The translations under genes were made by a program, and so were the position numbers. DNA of 59,072 bases from an uncultured Schlesneria sp. (GTDB lineage Bacteria; Planctomycetota; Planctomycetia; Planctomycetales; Planctomycetaceae), in contig CAIULL010000123.1 of the NCBI GenBank assembly GCA_903899985.1, forward strand, positions 1 to 59,072, read 5' to 3'. The notes beneath the pieces were generated by a model. That model saw only the letters and a program-made list of their open reading frames with translations, was not told where the DNA came from and did no database searches. Shown here piece after piece: positions 32,872-38,336 of this stretch. Each line of letters begins with the position of its first letter. The stretch's first letter is position 1.

Positions 32872-33654
32872 TTAAACGACAATCAACCACGTTAACAGGA
32901 TCGCAAACGAACCCAGTATTGTGGCAAGGACCTGAAACGAATCGGTCGATTCTTCAACAATCTCCACCTGCTCACCCAGCCAGTCAGGAAAACGTTTCAT
33001 GATATCACGCCAGAATCGTTCCTGAACAAATCGTTCGATGAATAGAAGCGAAAACGCAAGACAAGGAATTCCCAGGTTCGTTTCATCAACAATGGTCTCA
33101 CTCGATGTCTTCGAGAATCGACTTGAACGAGCTTGATGCGGGTCCACTGATTCTCGTGTAAGTCGAATCAGGAGCCCTGCCAGAACACTGATGGCTAACC
33201 ATCCAAGGAGAGATTGAGCCAGATTCGGTGCATAAAGAAAACTTGTCAGAGCGACATAGAGCAGACTCTCGACAAGACTGAGATTTTCTGAGAGTGAGGG
33301 GCGAGTTCGAACCCCAATCGATAATTGCTTTGCCAGCAGCACACCCCCAAGTAGACTGTCCAGTAAGGCTTTAACCCAAGTGGCCTGCAGTCCAAAAGAA
33401 AGGGAAATGGAGCGCGGATCGGTCATCGAAAACCATGTCCACATCGGGACTTGAACCGATGGAAGAACATTGAATTCATGGCTGTATAAAAGAATCACAA
33501 GAACGGCGGAACCGATGCATCCACCAGCGAACCCCGTTCGTGCTGCGGCGACACCCCATCTTTGAAACTCGAAAAGGGTGCCGATCAATAAACCGATTGC
33601 CCCGAGTATCGGGAACGCTGCAGCCGCGATCAGCCAGAATTCAGGGGCCGTCAT
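32872..33654 (-). CDS. NuoL-like truncated membrane protein
   Basis: This is a 260-residue protein with six or more hydrophobic helices. The segment VESLLYVALTSFLYAPNLAQ followed by SLLGWLAISVLAGLLIRL resembles the NuoL stretch that normally reads NL-x6-GWE-x-VGL-x-SYLLIGF. The glutamate after GW, conserved in complex I antiporter subunits, is leucine here. The C-terminus (FIERFVQERFWRDIMKRFPD to the final hydrophobic helix) resembles the last part of NuoL. The middle antiporter core is absent, so the protein is less than half the usual length (about 600). Its start overlaps the NuoK-like gene by four bases (ATGA). The resemblance is inferred by eye. Confidence 0.55.
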   Translation of the reverse strand: MTAPEFWLIAAAAFPILGAIGLLIGTLFEFQRWGVAAARTGFAGGCIGSAVLVILLYSHEFNVLPSVQVPMWTWFSMTDPRSISLSFGLQATWVKALLDSLLGGVLLAKQLSIGVRTRPSLSENLSLVESLLYVALTSFLYAPNLAQSLLGWLAISVLAGLLIRLTRESVDPHQARSSRFSKTSSETIVDETNLGIPCLAFSLLFIERFVQERFWRDIMKRFPDWLGEQVEIVEESTDSFQVLATILGSFAILLTWLIVV

Positions 33655-33947
33655 GATCTCGATTGTTCCTCGTCCAATGGCAGCTCGTCGTTGACACTCG
33701 GCGACCCCAATGTGGATTGAACGATCAGTAGTCCTACGATCACAACTGCGCCGAGTTTAAGTTCGCTTTGACGCTGAAAAAACGCGGCACTGACGACGAA
33801 AGCCAGTAGAATCCCCTGCAACAACACGCTCTGTCGCATCGATCGCTCGGCACCATTTCGCGCCAGGACAACACCGATAATTCCCATCACAATGCATACC
33901 GACGCAAACAGAATGTGACTGCCCCAGTTGCCATTTTCAATGTTCAT
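33651..33947 (-). CDS. NuoK-like small membrane protein
   Basis: The product is 98 residues with three hydrophobic helices, the size and layout of NuoK. The segment IVMGIIGVVLARNGAERSMR aligns with the NuoK pattern LG-x-x-G-x-x-IRRN-x-L-x-x-L, and GILLAFVVSAAFF with its second helix end. The two buried glutamates of NuoK (GLE in helix 2 and AAAEA in helix 3) appear as S-V and V-Q here. The tail is acidic and polar. It sits between the NuoJ-like gene (four-base gap) and the NuoL-like gene (overlap), the canonical J-K-L order. Confidence 0.55.
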   Translation of the reverse strand: MNIENGNWGSHILFASVCIVMGIIGVVLARNGAERSMRQSVLLQGILLAFVVSAAFFQRQSELKLGAVVIVGLLIVQSTLGSPSVNDELPLDEEQSRS

Positions 33948-33951
33948 GGAT

Positions 33952-34800
33952 TTACTCAGGAATGTTTCCGGTTGTCACTTCGACGATTCTTGCCCCGTCT
34001 ACCGATTCACCCGAAGCAGAGCCCATCGACATTGCCAAATAGACAAAGACAATCACGGTCATCAGCACTAAGATATCCGATCGGCGACCCAACGCGAGAT
34101 TGAGCGGAGAACCAACCTGATCGGGATGATTTCGATTGACCAGAACTTCATTCAACCGGTCGCGTGTTGGCAGAGCAGTCTGTTGGGGACTCGACACGAC
34201 ATGCGACATCTCGCTGCGCAGGGTATAGGAAATCGTGCCGAACGAAGTGAACGCTAACAGACTGACCAGCACACCGACCAGCCAATAGCGCCCCGGTTCC
34301 CCTGAAGCGACTGGCTTATCATCAAACGGTACCGCAGCCATTAACCAATCACGGACCGAAATCGGTGCTGGTCTGGACAAGTTACCAAAAAGAGGTCGTG
34401 CGGCCACGCTGGCGACGATCAAGAGCCCAAAAGCGACTTCCCGCTGTTGAAACAAAGCACAAATGCACGCATTGGCAAGTGTATGTACGACATAACCCGC
34501 ACGTTGACACAGTAACGAGACGCGACCTGAAGAATAAATACTCGCTGCCAGGCTGACTGCCAGACAAACGCCAAAACCAAAATCAGCCAGTTGGGAAAGA
34601 GTCGAACGAGACGACGAGGAAACATCCTGGCCTGGATTGGTTCTCAAAGCCAAAAAGATCAGGGCAAGATAAACCAGAGTTGCCAGACCAGACCAAAGCC
34701 GAACTTCTCGATTAACGTTAGGGCGAACCCATAACGTCAGAGCGACCGACCACATTCCAAGCAGTATTGCTAACCACCAGGGAATAAAAGGATCATTCAT
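33952..34800 (-). CDS. NuoJ-like membrane protein
   Basis: This is a 282-residue protein with about seven hydrophobic helices. Residues about 75-140 (DFGFGVCLAVSLAASIYSSG then QQREVAFGLLIVASVAARPL) have the rhythm of NuoJ, where a glutamate opens a helix before an LLLVA-type segment. The C-terminal part (SDILVLMTVIVFVYLAMSMG) ends in a polar tail. The resemblance is weaker than for the next two proteins and leans on their order. It could be a different membrane protein. The gene lies 117 bases downstream of the DUF3467 gene and four bases upstream of the NuoK-like gene. Confidence 0.45.
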   Translation of the reverse strand: MNDPFIPWWLAILLGMWSVALTLWVRPNVNREVRLWSGLATLVYLALIFLALRTNPGQDVSSSSRSTLSQLADFGFGVCLAVSLAASIYSSGRVSLLCQRAGYVVHTLANACICALFQQREVAFGLLIVASVAARPLFGNLSRPAPISVRDWLMAAVPFDDKPVASGEPGRYWLVGVLVSLLAFTSFGTISYTLRSEMSHVVSSPQQTALPTRDRLNEVLVNRNHPDQVGSPLNLALGRRSDILVLMTVIVFVYLAMSMGSASGESVDGARIVEVTTGNIPE

Positions 34801-34917: not shown

Positions 34918-35265
34918 CTATTTGACGTTGCGCTGTGGAATCACTCGCTTGTTGACGTCAATTTGAACTTCGCCAAATGCCTGCTCGTGACGCTGAAGGA
35001 AAGCCCCAAGAGCCAGCCACAGACGTTTTGCAGTGTAGTAGTTGACAACCAGACGTTGCGAGACTTTGACTGGCGTCGATTGTGCACCCGCTGGCTGAGG
35101 ATTCAAACCGAAATCCAGAATCAGCTCTTCCGGCAATCCAGAAACCCGAGCGAAATTCGCGTACAGCGGTTCGAGACCCTCAGGCTCAACAACCTGCTGG
35201 ACTGGCTGAGTTACTGCGGGTTGTTGGGTTGTTGCACTAGCGTCAAGATTCGGGGTATCTGCCAC
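34918..35265 (-). CDS. DUF3467 family protein
   Basis: The product is 115 residues, starting at GTG (35265) with GGAG upstream. A Pro/Gln/Val-rich leader of about 30 residues precedes the DUF3467 core: LYANFARVSGLPEELILDFG, VKVSQRLVVNYYTAKRLWLA and LQRHEQAFGEVQID. The family is small, beta-rich and widespread, with no settled function. It is the first gene of the - strand group that continues into the three NuoJKL-like genes. Confidence 0.85.
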   Translation of the reverse strand: MADTPNLDASATTQQPAVTQPVQQVVEPEGLEPLYANFARVSGLPEELILDFGLNPQPAGAQSTPVKVSQRLVVNYYTAKRLWLALGAFLQRHEQAFGEVQIDVNKRVIPQRNVK

Positions 35266-35693: not shown

Positions 35694-36104
35694 GCAGGTC
35701 GCCACAGTAACATCCGTAACTGGCAAGGCTTACGAATACGCAAACGTGCAAGGACTTGACGTCAGCGCTGATTTCGCCTTCGGCGCTAATGGCTTTGCAA
35801 CCGGTGAAGCAGAGGCACCCTTTTCCGTGAAGCAAGTGATTTCTTGAAGAAAAACGCCTCGCAACGCTGAGCAACTTGATCATTAGCCATTGCAACACAA
35901 TACCTTGCGGAAACTGTACGTCTCCGTTGCAAATGCTGACCGCTTCGTCACGCCACAAAATTCTCACAAGATACAGGCGTTATCTTCCGATCAACTGATA
36001 CTGCCAGTTCAGTTTGCGCATTCGGTATCTCTTAGCAGTCATGCGGTCTGCGGGGACAATTCGAAAGGCCAGACGATTGACCCTTGGCGGTCAGGGATCA
36101 TGCC

Positions 36105-38336
36105 ATGCCGAGTCAACAACGCCCAAGTAGCCCTTTCCAATCTGCCTTCTGGGCGATGGTACTGGCGGTGGGTCTACCCTTGGTTGTTTTGATGTTTGGA
36201 GTGATCCGAACACGCCAATTGCAATCGACAGCCAATCCTCGCTGGGCAAAGTTCGCAAAAGGGACAACTTCCCCAGAGCCAAAGACGCAGACGGCGTCGC
36301 GCCAAACCCCCGCGCGTCAGCCAACGATTCAGTTTCAGGAAATCACCGCATCGGATAGCGATCACTCGCCCGTCCCTCAAGTGAATTTCACGGGTTCTGT
36401 AACCAGACGGAAACCAGTGGAACCAAAGATCGATTCGGAATCGACTTTGACTTCCACACACCAGACGATCAGTTCACGTTCGCAACCCGAATTTGAAGAA
36501 CTCCCCCCGATTATCTTCCGGCCCGTTGACGACGAAGACGATTCCCGGACTGCCCAGTCAACCCGTCGTCTCGAATCACAACTGACGGATGTACGGCAAC
36601 AACTCGATCGATTATCGACCCAACAGCAACAGCAGCAGGCAGAAGAAATTGCCCGCCAGGCGAAATTACTTGATGTCATCACGAAACTCAGCGAACGACC
36701 AACGAGCGATTCCGTGAGTCCTGAGCTGTCATCTGTCCCTTGCACAAAAGAACCCGCATTCGATCCTCAAACTCCGACATTGATTGCCGAAGATTTGCCG
36801 AGTTCTATCGACGTTTTGCCGGTCGAAACACCCACCGCTGAAACACCGATGGTCGAGGTACCAGCCCCCGAGCCACTCAATCCTGCGTATGATGATGAAT
36901 CGCCGATCCGTATCCGGCGGTCAACAGAACTCGGTGCGCCTGAAACATTCTCGATCAGTGCTGACAATGCTGATATCCGTCGTATCTTCGCGAAACTGAG
37001 CGACGTGGCACAAATCAGCATCATCCCAAGCCCTGAAATTCAGGGACGAATCTCGTTGAACTTACGTGATGTCCGAATTGAAGCCGCTCTTAAGGCCATC
37101 GTTGCCGCGCAGGATTACGTCATCGAGCGAGATGACAATATCATCATTGTCCGCACTCTGGCTGAAATCGCTCGGCGAAAACAGCAGAATCGCAAACTGA
37201 TCGTGAAAGTATATCGCCCGAATTTTCTGAGTGCTGCCGAATTGGTCGGCTTGATCGAACCGCTTCTCTCAAGTGACGGTCGACATTCGGCCACGTCACC
37301 AGAACTGACAGGATTAGCCGTCGACGAAGGATTGTCTTCCGGAGATCCGACTGCTCAGCGGGATACAGTGATTGTCCAGGATGTACCCGAAGTTCTGGAT
37401 CAGATCGACCAGATTCTTGTGGATGTGGATGTTCCACCCCTGCAAGTCAGTATCGAGGCGAAAATCCTCAGCGTCAGGTTGTCGGACGGCATACAGCAGG
37501 GAATTGATCTGAGCCAACTTCCATGTTATCGCGATGCAGGCGTCTCACTGGCCGAAGGGGGATTAAAACAGGCTCGTCTCTCGTGCAGCATTCCCGCGTT
37601 CATCAAATCGGTCGAGAGGATCGCCGATACGAGCATTGTGACCTCGCAACGGATTCAAGTTCTTAACAAACATCGAGCCGAGATGTTGATCGGTGACCGG
37701 ATCGGATATCAGTCGCAAGCAGGAAGCGAAGTTCGTTTTATGGACGCAGGAACTCGGCTGATCTTACGACCATCCGTTTCTGCTGACGGATTCATCCGAT
37801 TAGACATTCATCCGGAGCGAAGTTCCGCCACGACGGCGAAACGGTCGAGGCAGCCTGTGCAAACGACTGCCGAATTGACAACACAGGTCATGATCCGCGA
37901 CGGAGCCACAGTTGCAATTGGCGGCCTGATCGCAGAACAGGGGACCGATTCGACGAACCGTCTGCCCGTGGTAGGCTCGATCCCTGTGATTGGCATTCCG
38001 TTTCGTAACAAAAGGGAACGCCTTCAGCGGACCGAGCTGATCGTTCTTGTCACTCCGAAGATCGTCATCGACTGTGATAGCGAAGCGGAAGGGAAATGTC
38101 TTGAACACGCCGCCGAAGAACGAGCCGCCGAATTCCGCGATAAGCAAAGCCCTAAGAGTCGCCATAACCTTGCTCGAGCTCACTATGACAGGGCCTGCCA
38201 GGACTATCAGCAGGGGAATTTTGTCAAAGCTCGACAACAGATCAATGCTTCCCTGCGTGAAAACAAGACGGACCTTGACGCGATTCGCCTGCGAAACCAG
38301 ATCGATCAATGCCTGTTGCCACGAGTGATTCGTTGA
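36105..38336 (+). CDS. Secretin (GspD/PilQ-type outer-membrane channel)
   Basis: Secretins form the outer-membrane pore of type II secretion, type IV pilus and related systems. The ATG at 36105 gives 743 residues with an N-terminal membrane segment (FWAMVLAVGLPLVVLMFGV). A Ser/Thr/Pro-rich linker and a Gln-rich coil at about 165-195 follow. The short STN domain is at about 290-345 (IRRIFAKLSDVAQISIIPSP, LRDVRIEAALKAIVAAQDYV). Next come a secretin N-domain (VYRPNFLSAAELVGLIEPLL) and the secretin core (LQVSIEAKILSV ... VAIGGLIAEQ ... VVGSIPVIGIPF ... ELIVLVTPKIV). A TPR-like C-terminus (ARAHYDRACQDYQQGNFVKA) ends it. No other secretion gene is adjacent, so its partners must lie elsewhere. Confidence 0.9.
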   Translation: MPSQQRPSSPFQSAFWAMVLAVGLPLVVLMFGVIRTRQLQSTANPRWAKFAKGTTSPEPKTQTASRQTPARQPTIQFQEITASDSDHSPVPQVNFTGSVTRRKPVEPKIDSESTLTSTHQTISSRSQPEFEELPPIIFRPVDDEDDSRTAQSTRRLESQLTDVRQQLDRLSTQQQQQQAEEIARQAKLLDVITKLSERPTSDSVSPELSSVPCTKEPAFDPQTPTLIAEDLPSSIDVLPVETPTAETPMVEVPAPEPLNPAYDDESPIRIRRSTELGAPETFSISADNADIRRIFAKLSDVAQISIIPSPEIQGRISLNLRDVRIEAALKAIVAAQDYVIERDDNIIIVRTLAEIARRKQQNRKLIVKVYRPNFLSAAELVGLIEPLLSSDGRHSATSPELTGLAVDEGLSSGDPTAQRDTVIVQDVPEVLDQIDQILVDVDVPPLQVSIEAKILSVRLSDGIQQGIDLSQLPCYRDAGVSLAEGGLKQARLSCSIPAFIKSVERIADTSIVTSQRIQVLNKHRAEMLIGDRIGYQSQAGSEVRFMDAGTRLILRPSVSADGFIRLDIHPERSSATTAKRSRQPVQTTAELTTQVMIRDGATVAIGGLIAEQGTDSTNRLPVVGSIPVIGIPFRNKRERLQRTELIVLVTPKIVIDCDSEAEGKCLEHAAEERAAEFRDKQSPKSRHNLARAHYDRACQDYQQGNFVKARQQINASLRENKTDLDAIRLRNQIDQCLLPRVIR

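Follow-up and report, generated by a model that had tools for sequence, protein, structure and literature searches.

Known Membrane Arms and the Schlesneria Locus

In the known membrane arm of respiratory complex I, NuoL occupies the distal end. Natural remodelling of such arms has been described: the Nitrospira 2M, rhizobial green complex I and Manganitrophaceae Complex_I_3 possess arms with extra pumping subunits (PMC9040806). Jarman and Hirst left the matter of an uncoupled or reduced-stoichiometry complex I open (PMC9802314). Here we analysed a stretch of 59,072 nucleotides (the window) of contig CAIULL010000123.1, named C123 below, from an uncultured Schlesneria sp. of the family Planctomycetaceae (assembly GCA_903899985.1). 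Its minus strand carries three membrane protein genes, named J', K' and L', that look like degenerate relatives of nuoJ, nuoK and nuoL. The analysis reveals that a paralogous complex I membrane arm, stripped of most residues of the proton path, occurs in three genera of one family, namely the window's own genus (g1) and two others (g6 and g25). In the open-access literature, covered by listings and abstract openings, no description of such an arm was recognised.

The arm shares with that of respiratory complex I the set of subunits, the J-K-L-M-N gene order (seen in G010, a g6 genome), the predicted fold of J' and L', and an N-terminal extension of J' that is also present in the canonical NuoJ encoded on contig C161 of the same genome; the NuoJ of contig C164 is without it. 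It differs in that most proton-path residues are lost, no NuoH stands in the row, L' measures only 246–298 amino acids (aa) in eight members of the genus, and the genes are dispersed in that genus. The unusual complexes I mentioned above are likewise products of natural arm remodelling, but they gain pumping subunits, whereas here a whole extra arm loses pumping residues. The Mrp antiporter (MrpA/MrpD) has an antiporter-like fold too, and Mrp chains appear low in the fold lists of L' and J'; however, long L', M' and N' are nearest to NuoL/NdhF, NuoM and NuoN by family models. The DabA-DabB system also employs a NuoL-family protein outside complex I. The same Schlesneria genome encodes two pairs of a NuoL-like protein and a large soluble neighbour (C111/L106 and C189/L107), which we take to be similar to DabB-DabA (DUF2309). 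Unlike L', these DabB-like proteins keep the Lys motif of transmembrane helix (TM) 7 (SKSA, GKSA) and have the large soluble neighbour, with no J or K seen beside them. Contig C189 carries a second NuoL/M-like gene.

Descent of J', K' and L'

J' (282 aa, a degenerate NuoJ with the N-terminal extension) occupies positions 33952–34800, K' (98 aa, a degenerate NuoK with Glu36 changed to Ser and Glu72 to Gln) positions 33651–33947, and L' (260 aa, a reduced NuoL with Glu144 changed to Leu) positions 32872–33654, all on the minus strand. J' and K' are spaced by 4 bases, and the end of K' overlaps the start of L' by 4 bases (33651–33654), an overlap present in 14/14 genus loci. All the open reading frames (ORFs) in which the preliminary description of this DNA had seen three overlapping or nearly touching membrane genes in J-K-L order are present.

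The descent of the three proteins from NuoJ, NuoK and NuoL is strongly supported by sequence comparison, and the identities first assigned by eye are borne out for all three by profile matches of the kind then proposed as a check. In profile-profile alignment, J' (17 rows) matches canonical NuoJ (18 rows) with an E-value (E) of 3.4e-9 and a probability of 96, and K' matches canonical NuoK with E 5e-5. When hhalign is run against one canonical sequence, the matches are weak (E 0.009 for J' and 0.0055 for K'), a profile on both sides performing better. A single K' likewise matches the NCBIfam NuoK model weakly (E 0.008), and the top seven matches of a 14-row K' profile in the PDB are solved NuoK/NdhE chains (E 0.0015–0.093). 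Pfam returns chance-level matches for J' and K' and none for L', and a direct search of Pfam and NCBIfam with the 260-aa L' yields no useful match. The reduced L' is assigned to NuoL because its long relatives in the same genus (491–633 aa) match NuoL with E from 1e-27 to 2e-12; the best NCBIfam model of long L' is NuoL in four of five genus members scanned and NAD(P)H-quinone oxidoreductase subunit 5 in the fifth (G093). A fold search places the predicted structures of J' and L' on NuoJ and NuoL, in line with the earlier suggestion that the complex I arm fold is reused. As judged by the alignment and the predicted model, L' consists of TM1–5 with a beta hairpin, a disordered linker, a single long helix and a C-terminal TM. 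By alignment, the stretch carrying the TM7, TM8 and TM12 residues is gone from the protein, which agrees with the earlier remark that the 260-residue protein lacks the central antiporter core.

The Rest of the Arm

The preliminary description took the module for a J-K-L trio with no other Nuo subunit nearby. On C123 the Pfam NuoK and antiporter models indeed have no match, and neither does NuoH, whose matches in this genome lie on C161 and C164 only; the remaining Nuo families were not searched there. The trio is not the whole module, since M' and N' are present elsewhere in the genome, where they were found as two further weak antiporter-model matches on contigs C6 and C210, respectively. M' (548 aa) matches NuoM (TIGR01972, E 1.6e-27), and N' (627 aa) matches NuoN (TIGR01770, E 3.3e-18) and is above the Pfam cut-off. 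Each stands alone, apart from the canonical complex I loci on C161 and C164. The best NCBIfam model was NuoM for 3/3 M' and NuoN for 2/2 N'. Among the genus genomes searched, M' was found in 13 of 14, missing in the fragmented G093, and N' in all 14. The N' frame of the window's genome (L105:5424-7304) is open where, against it, one or more stops are seen in four relatives (G038, G046, G088 and G051).

In G010 a single row holds J', K', L' (655 aa), M' (541 aa) and N' (466 aa), and no further Nuo gene was recognised beside it. The L' of G010 fits the long L' of the genus (E 4.8e-9), and that of G047 (649 aa) matches the G010 protein with E 4e-27 and the long L' of the genus with E 1.5e-4. Both M' and N' were found in all four g25 genomes searched (G070, G064, G152 and G149). 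Three members of the window's genus (G000, G046 and G105) and G010 each have three JKLMN sets and two NuoH, equal in number to the canonical loci, and a third NuoH was found in none of these four. Two observations were made in g25: G152 has a third, weaker NuoH-family match above the cut-off (G152:C6:15857-16723, E 1.2e-33), and G070 has a third one below it. A NuoM tree separates 17 M' rows (g1 and g25) from 21 canonical NuoM of two types with support of 100/99.7; the M' of G010, a long branch, was not included. Three clades of this unrooted tree are made up by M', C161 NuoM and C164 NuoM, so that either canonical type may be the parent of M'.

Loss of Proton-Path Residues

Residue columns were anchored on motifs of the C161-type subunits of the same genome, and the NuoK, NuoL, NuoM and NuoN sites are numbered as in E. 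coli. Glu36 of NuoK is kept in 0/18 copies of K', and Glu72 in one (that of G070), the alignment near the latter site being loose. In 17 copies of L', Glu144, His254 and Lys399 are never found, and Lys229 is Arg in 9/9 copies that still have the site, so that L' retains none of the four sites (TM5 Glu, TM7 Lys, TM8 Lys/His and TM12 Lys/Glu). The earlier reading of the window, with both NuoK glutamates replaced and Leu in place of the GWE glutamate of NuoL, is thus confirmed, and the survey of relatives then proposed turned up, among those aligned, none that keeps NuoK Glu36 or NuoL Glu144. Among 18 copies of M', Glu144 is kept in six, Lys234 in none, Lys265 in four and Glu407 in five; among the eight members of the genus whose L' is short, the respective numbers are 0, 0, 0 and 1. 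N' keeps Glu133 of TM5 in 15/18 copies and has Lys at position 247 or 395 (TM8, TM12) in none; at site 217 Arg is already found in the canonical C161 NuoN. The row of G064 was excluded from the N' counts (wrong frame) and from the L' counts (a 168-aa ORF, see below). M' has lost other residues in g1 than in g25, so part of the loss was parallel. One position of the window's L', Glu231, is invariant in 25/25 aligned L' rows and is Arg in the genome's own NuoL; it is a possible new functional residue.

Shortening and Apparent Loss of L'

Within g1, L' is about 630, about 490 or 246–298 aa long, and in the eight members with the shortest form TM6–15 has been lost, as judged by alignment and model. 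The M' tree joins the members having the 490-aa L' with those having the 630-aa L', apart from the eight short-L' members. Shortening as one stepwise series is therefore not supported, and at least two separate shortenings are implied. In g25, G070 carries a J'K'L'M' row with an L' of 692 aa (best NCBIfam model NuoL, E 1.4e-29). No recognisable L' lies beside J'K' in nine of ten readable g25 loci, L' elsewhere in those genomes not having been searched. Six of these genomes (G152, G149, G151, G154, G045 and G153; loci L097, L100, L103, L217, L218 and L220) pass from J'K' directly to a gene that by eye is moeA-like. In G064, G100 and G148 (loci L098, L215 and L216) a membrane ORF of about 168 aa intervenes; that of G064, to which the other two are similar, was rejected as a cut-down L' as it shows no similarity to the G070 L' (BLASTP E 3.3). 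In G150, also of g25, the contig end falls inside J'. Because NuoL is the distal subunit, the part cut or missing would be the outer end of the arm.

Distribution and Selection

Searching 120 genomes of the order with a single J' sequence gave matches in 14, which all belong to the window's genus (1/47 genera). With a 17-row J' profile, 39/170 order genomes matched at E <= 0.01, namely 14/15 g1 genomes, two g6 genomes, eleven g25 genomes and, with weaker matches, 12 genomes of other genera, the g6 and g25 figures being counts of matches, with the genomes lacking one not all listed. The sole g1 genome without J', G161, is 89% complete and lies in about 1560 contigs; no J' match was obtained in a third genome of g6 (64% complete). 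Five of the 12 weaker matches were read by eye: in each, a canonical NuoJ comes after NuoH, and in four of them NuoK and/or NuoL come next as far as the locus extends. A class-wide search at E <= 0.001 gave matches in 20/347 genomes, of genera g1, g6, g25, g29 and g36; the g29 match is one of the canonical NuoJ loci read. Close database homologues of K' (74% identical) and L' are labelled Schlesneria sp., and g1 is accordingly regarded as Schlesneria-like. A single decayed copy, the alternative that the preliminary description had itself raised, is ruled out by the presence of J' in 14/15 genus members, with NuoK Glu36 and NuoL Glu144 lost in all that were aligned.

The arm genes are under purifying selection that is weaker than in their canonical cousins. 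Omega was calculated by the Nei-Gojobori method with our own script. Over five pairs each, it amounts to 0.19–0.28 for J', 0.21–0.37 for K', 0.24–0.32 for L' and 0.05–0.08 for DUF3467, as compared with 0.02–0.09 for canonical NuoJ and 0–0.05 for canonical NuoK; M' gives 0.18–0.20 (four pairs) and N' 0.14–0.17 (two pairs). Across the genus, J' is 74 to 25% identical to the window's copy; for canonical NuoJ of these genomes, identity to the NuoJ of the window's genome is 98 to 67%. All 14 genus loci have open J', K' and L' frames and preserve the K'/L' overlap.

DUF3467 and Other Neighbours

On the minus strand the gene order is DUF3467, J', K', L'. The DUF3467 protein (34918–35265, 115 aa) matches PF11950 with E 1.1e-13, above the Pfam cut-off. 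Its gene is found directly upstream of J' on the same strand in 12/14 genus loci, including five of six distant members whose locus is without the window's 209-aa and secretin-like neighbours (one of these distant members has a 31% identical HtrA-like match). It is absent beside the trio in two of the 14 members. Genome G040 has no DUF3467 at all. The same transcription unit may possibly hold DUF3467 and the trio in the genus. In the three genomes of other genera in which both were searched (G010, G047 and G045), DUF3467 lies away from the trio, and a fixed partnership beyond the genus was rejected. The gene is independent of the trio because it occurs in 57/61 order genomes. Its placement at the head of the module in the preliminary description holds for a neighbour at the level of the genus and fails for a fixed part. 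In many genera of the order other than g1, the DUF3467 gene often has close to it another gene whose product contains two DUF3467 domains. A gene that by eye is secretin-like (36084–38336, plus strand, 750 aa) adjoins the DUF3467-J'K'L' unit and is near the trio in seven of 13 other genus loci compared.

A Possible Role and Its Alternatives

The most likely explanation of the data is a membrane assembly that no longer pumps and has taken on a new role. Its source would be a nuoJKLMN duplicate which the ancestor shared by three or more genera of the family probably already had. The data show that most proton-path residues are lost, that L' is shortened and the genes are dispersed in the window's genus, that no L' is recognised beside J'K' in most g25 loci, and that purifying selection continues. 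The subunits may still pack side by side in the complex I order J-K-N-M-L, which we infer because the subunit that is cut or lost is the distal one. Such an arm would be unable to pump protons in the manner of complex I. Embedded in the membrane, it might act as an anchor or scaffold to which some other partner binds; in the genus, this may be a soluble protein, DUF3467 for example. We give even chances to the proposal that J'K'L' are three of the five subunits of a paralogous arm J'K'L'M'N' that is now a non-pumping scaffold or anchor. More tentatively, we suggest that a complete complex I arm was freed from energy conversion and became a different membrane machine, its parts scattered in one genus and its NuoL end cut or dropped separately in two.

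Several observations weigh against this interpretation. J'K'L', M' and N' lie on three contigs of the window's genome, where gene order gives no support for co-assembly. No NuoL was found when 14 reduced L' were run as a profile against the PDB, and 18 reduced L' rows reach just E 0.1 against the genome's own NuoL, so that this link hangs on the long relatives. Nor is a NuoJ chain among the PDB matches of the J' sequence profile. Neither Pfam nor NCBIfam has a family that matches the L' of G010 or G047, and Pfam has none for the window genome's M' or the G010 N'. Residue loss is incomplete, as N' Glu133 (15/18) and M' Glu144 (6/18) illustrate. In the same pairs, omega is about 3–12 times as high for J' as for canonical NuoJ, and in-frame stops occur in the J' of G151 (g25) and the M' of G088 (window's genus, TAA).

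The last two points would fit a functionless relic in slow decay, retained only because its loss of function is recent, as would the cut-down L' and the six g25 genomes without L' beside J'K'. We regard such a relic as quite unlikely, given omega of 0.14–0.37 at dS of 0.2–1.4, the open J', K' and L' frames with their overlap in 14/14 genus loci, and the retention of genes at three separate places in 13–14 of 14 genomes. It is unlikely, too, that J'K'L'M'N' dock on canonical NuoH/NuoA and the peripheral arm to give an alternative complex I, either dormant or oxidising NADH with little or no pumping. The three JKLMN sets to two NuoH in G000, G046, G105 and G010 speak for this arrangement, as do the N-terminal extension common to J' and C161-type NuoJ and the retention of J', K', M' and N' in g25 in the cases with no L' apparent next to J'K'. 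However, Paracoccus mutants of such residues are reported to slow or stop catalysis without uncoupling (PMC9802314), and E. coli with truncated NuoL to form little active complex I (PMC3274701).

Least probable is a new transporter or channel, in which the antiporter-like subunits would pass another ion or solute by a path independent of the Lys/Glu chain. The uniform Arg at L' site 229 and the invariant L' Glu231, Arg in the genome's own NuoL, are consistent with such a path. It is made improbable by the loss of TM6–15 from L' in eight genus members, by the six g25 genomes with no L' between J'K' and the next gene (L' elsewhere there not having been searched), and by the loss of differing residues from M' and N' in different genera.

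Significance

The genes noticed in the preliminary description belong to a larger whole, a residue-stripped complex I membrane arm under selection in three genera. Its descent is strongly supported on sequence grounds; the non-pumping scaffold or anchor is a proposed role. The genomes offer a natural case series, with NuoL long, short or missing and varied residue losses in NuoL, NuoM and NuoN, in relatives that also keep a canonical complex I. Such a series would show what a complex I arm becomes once pumping is dropped, and which surfaces, rather than channels, selection retains.
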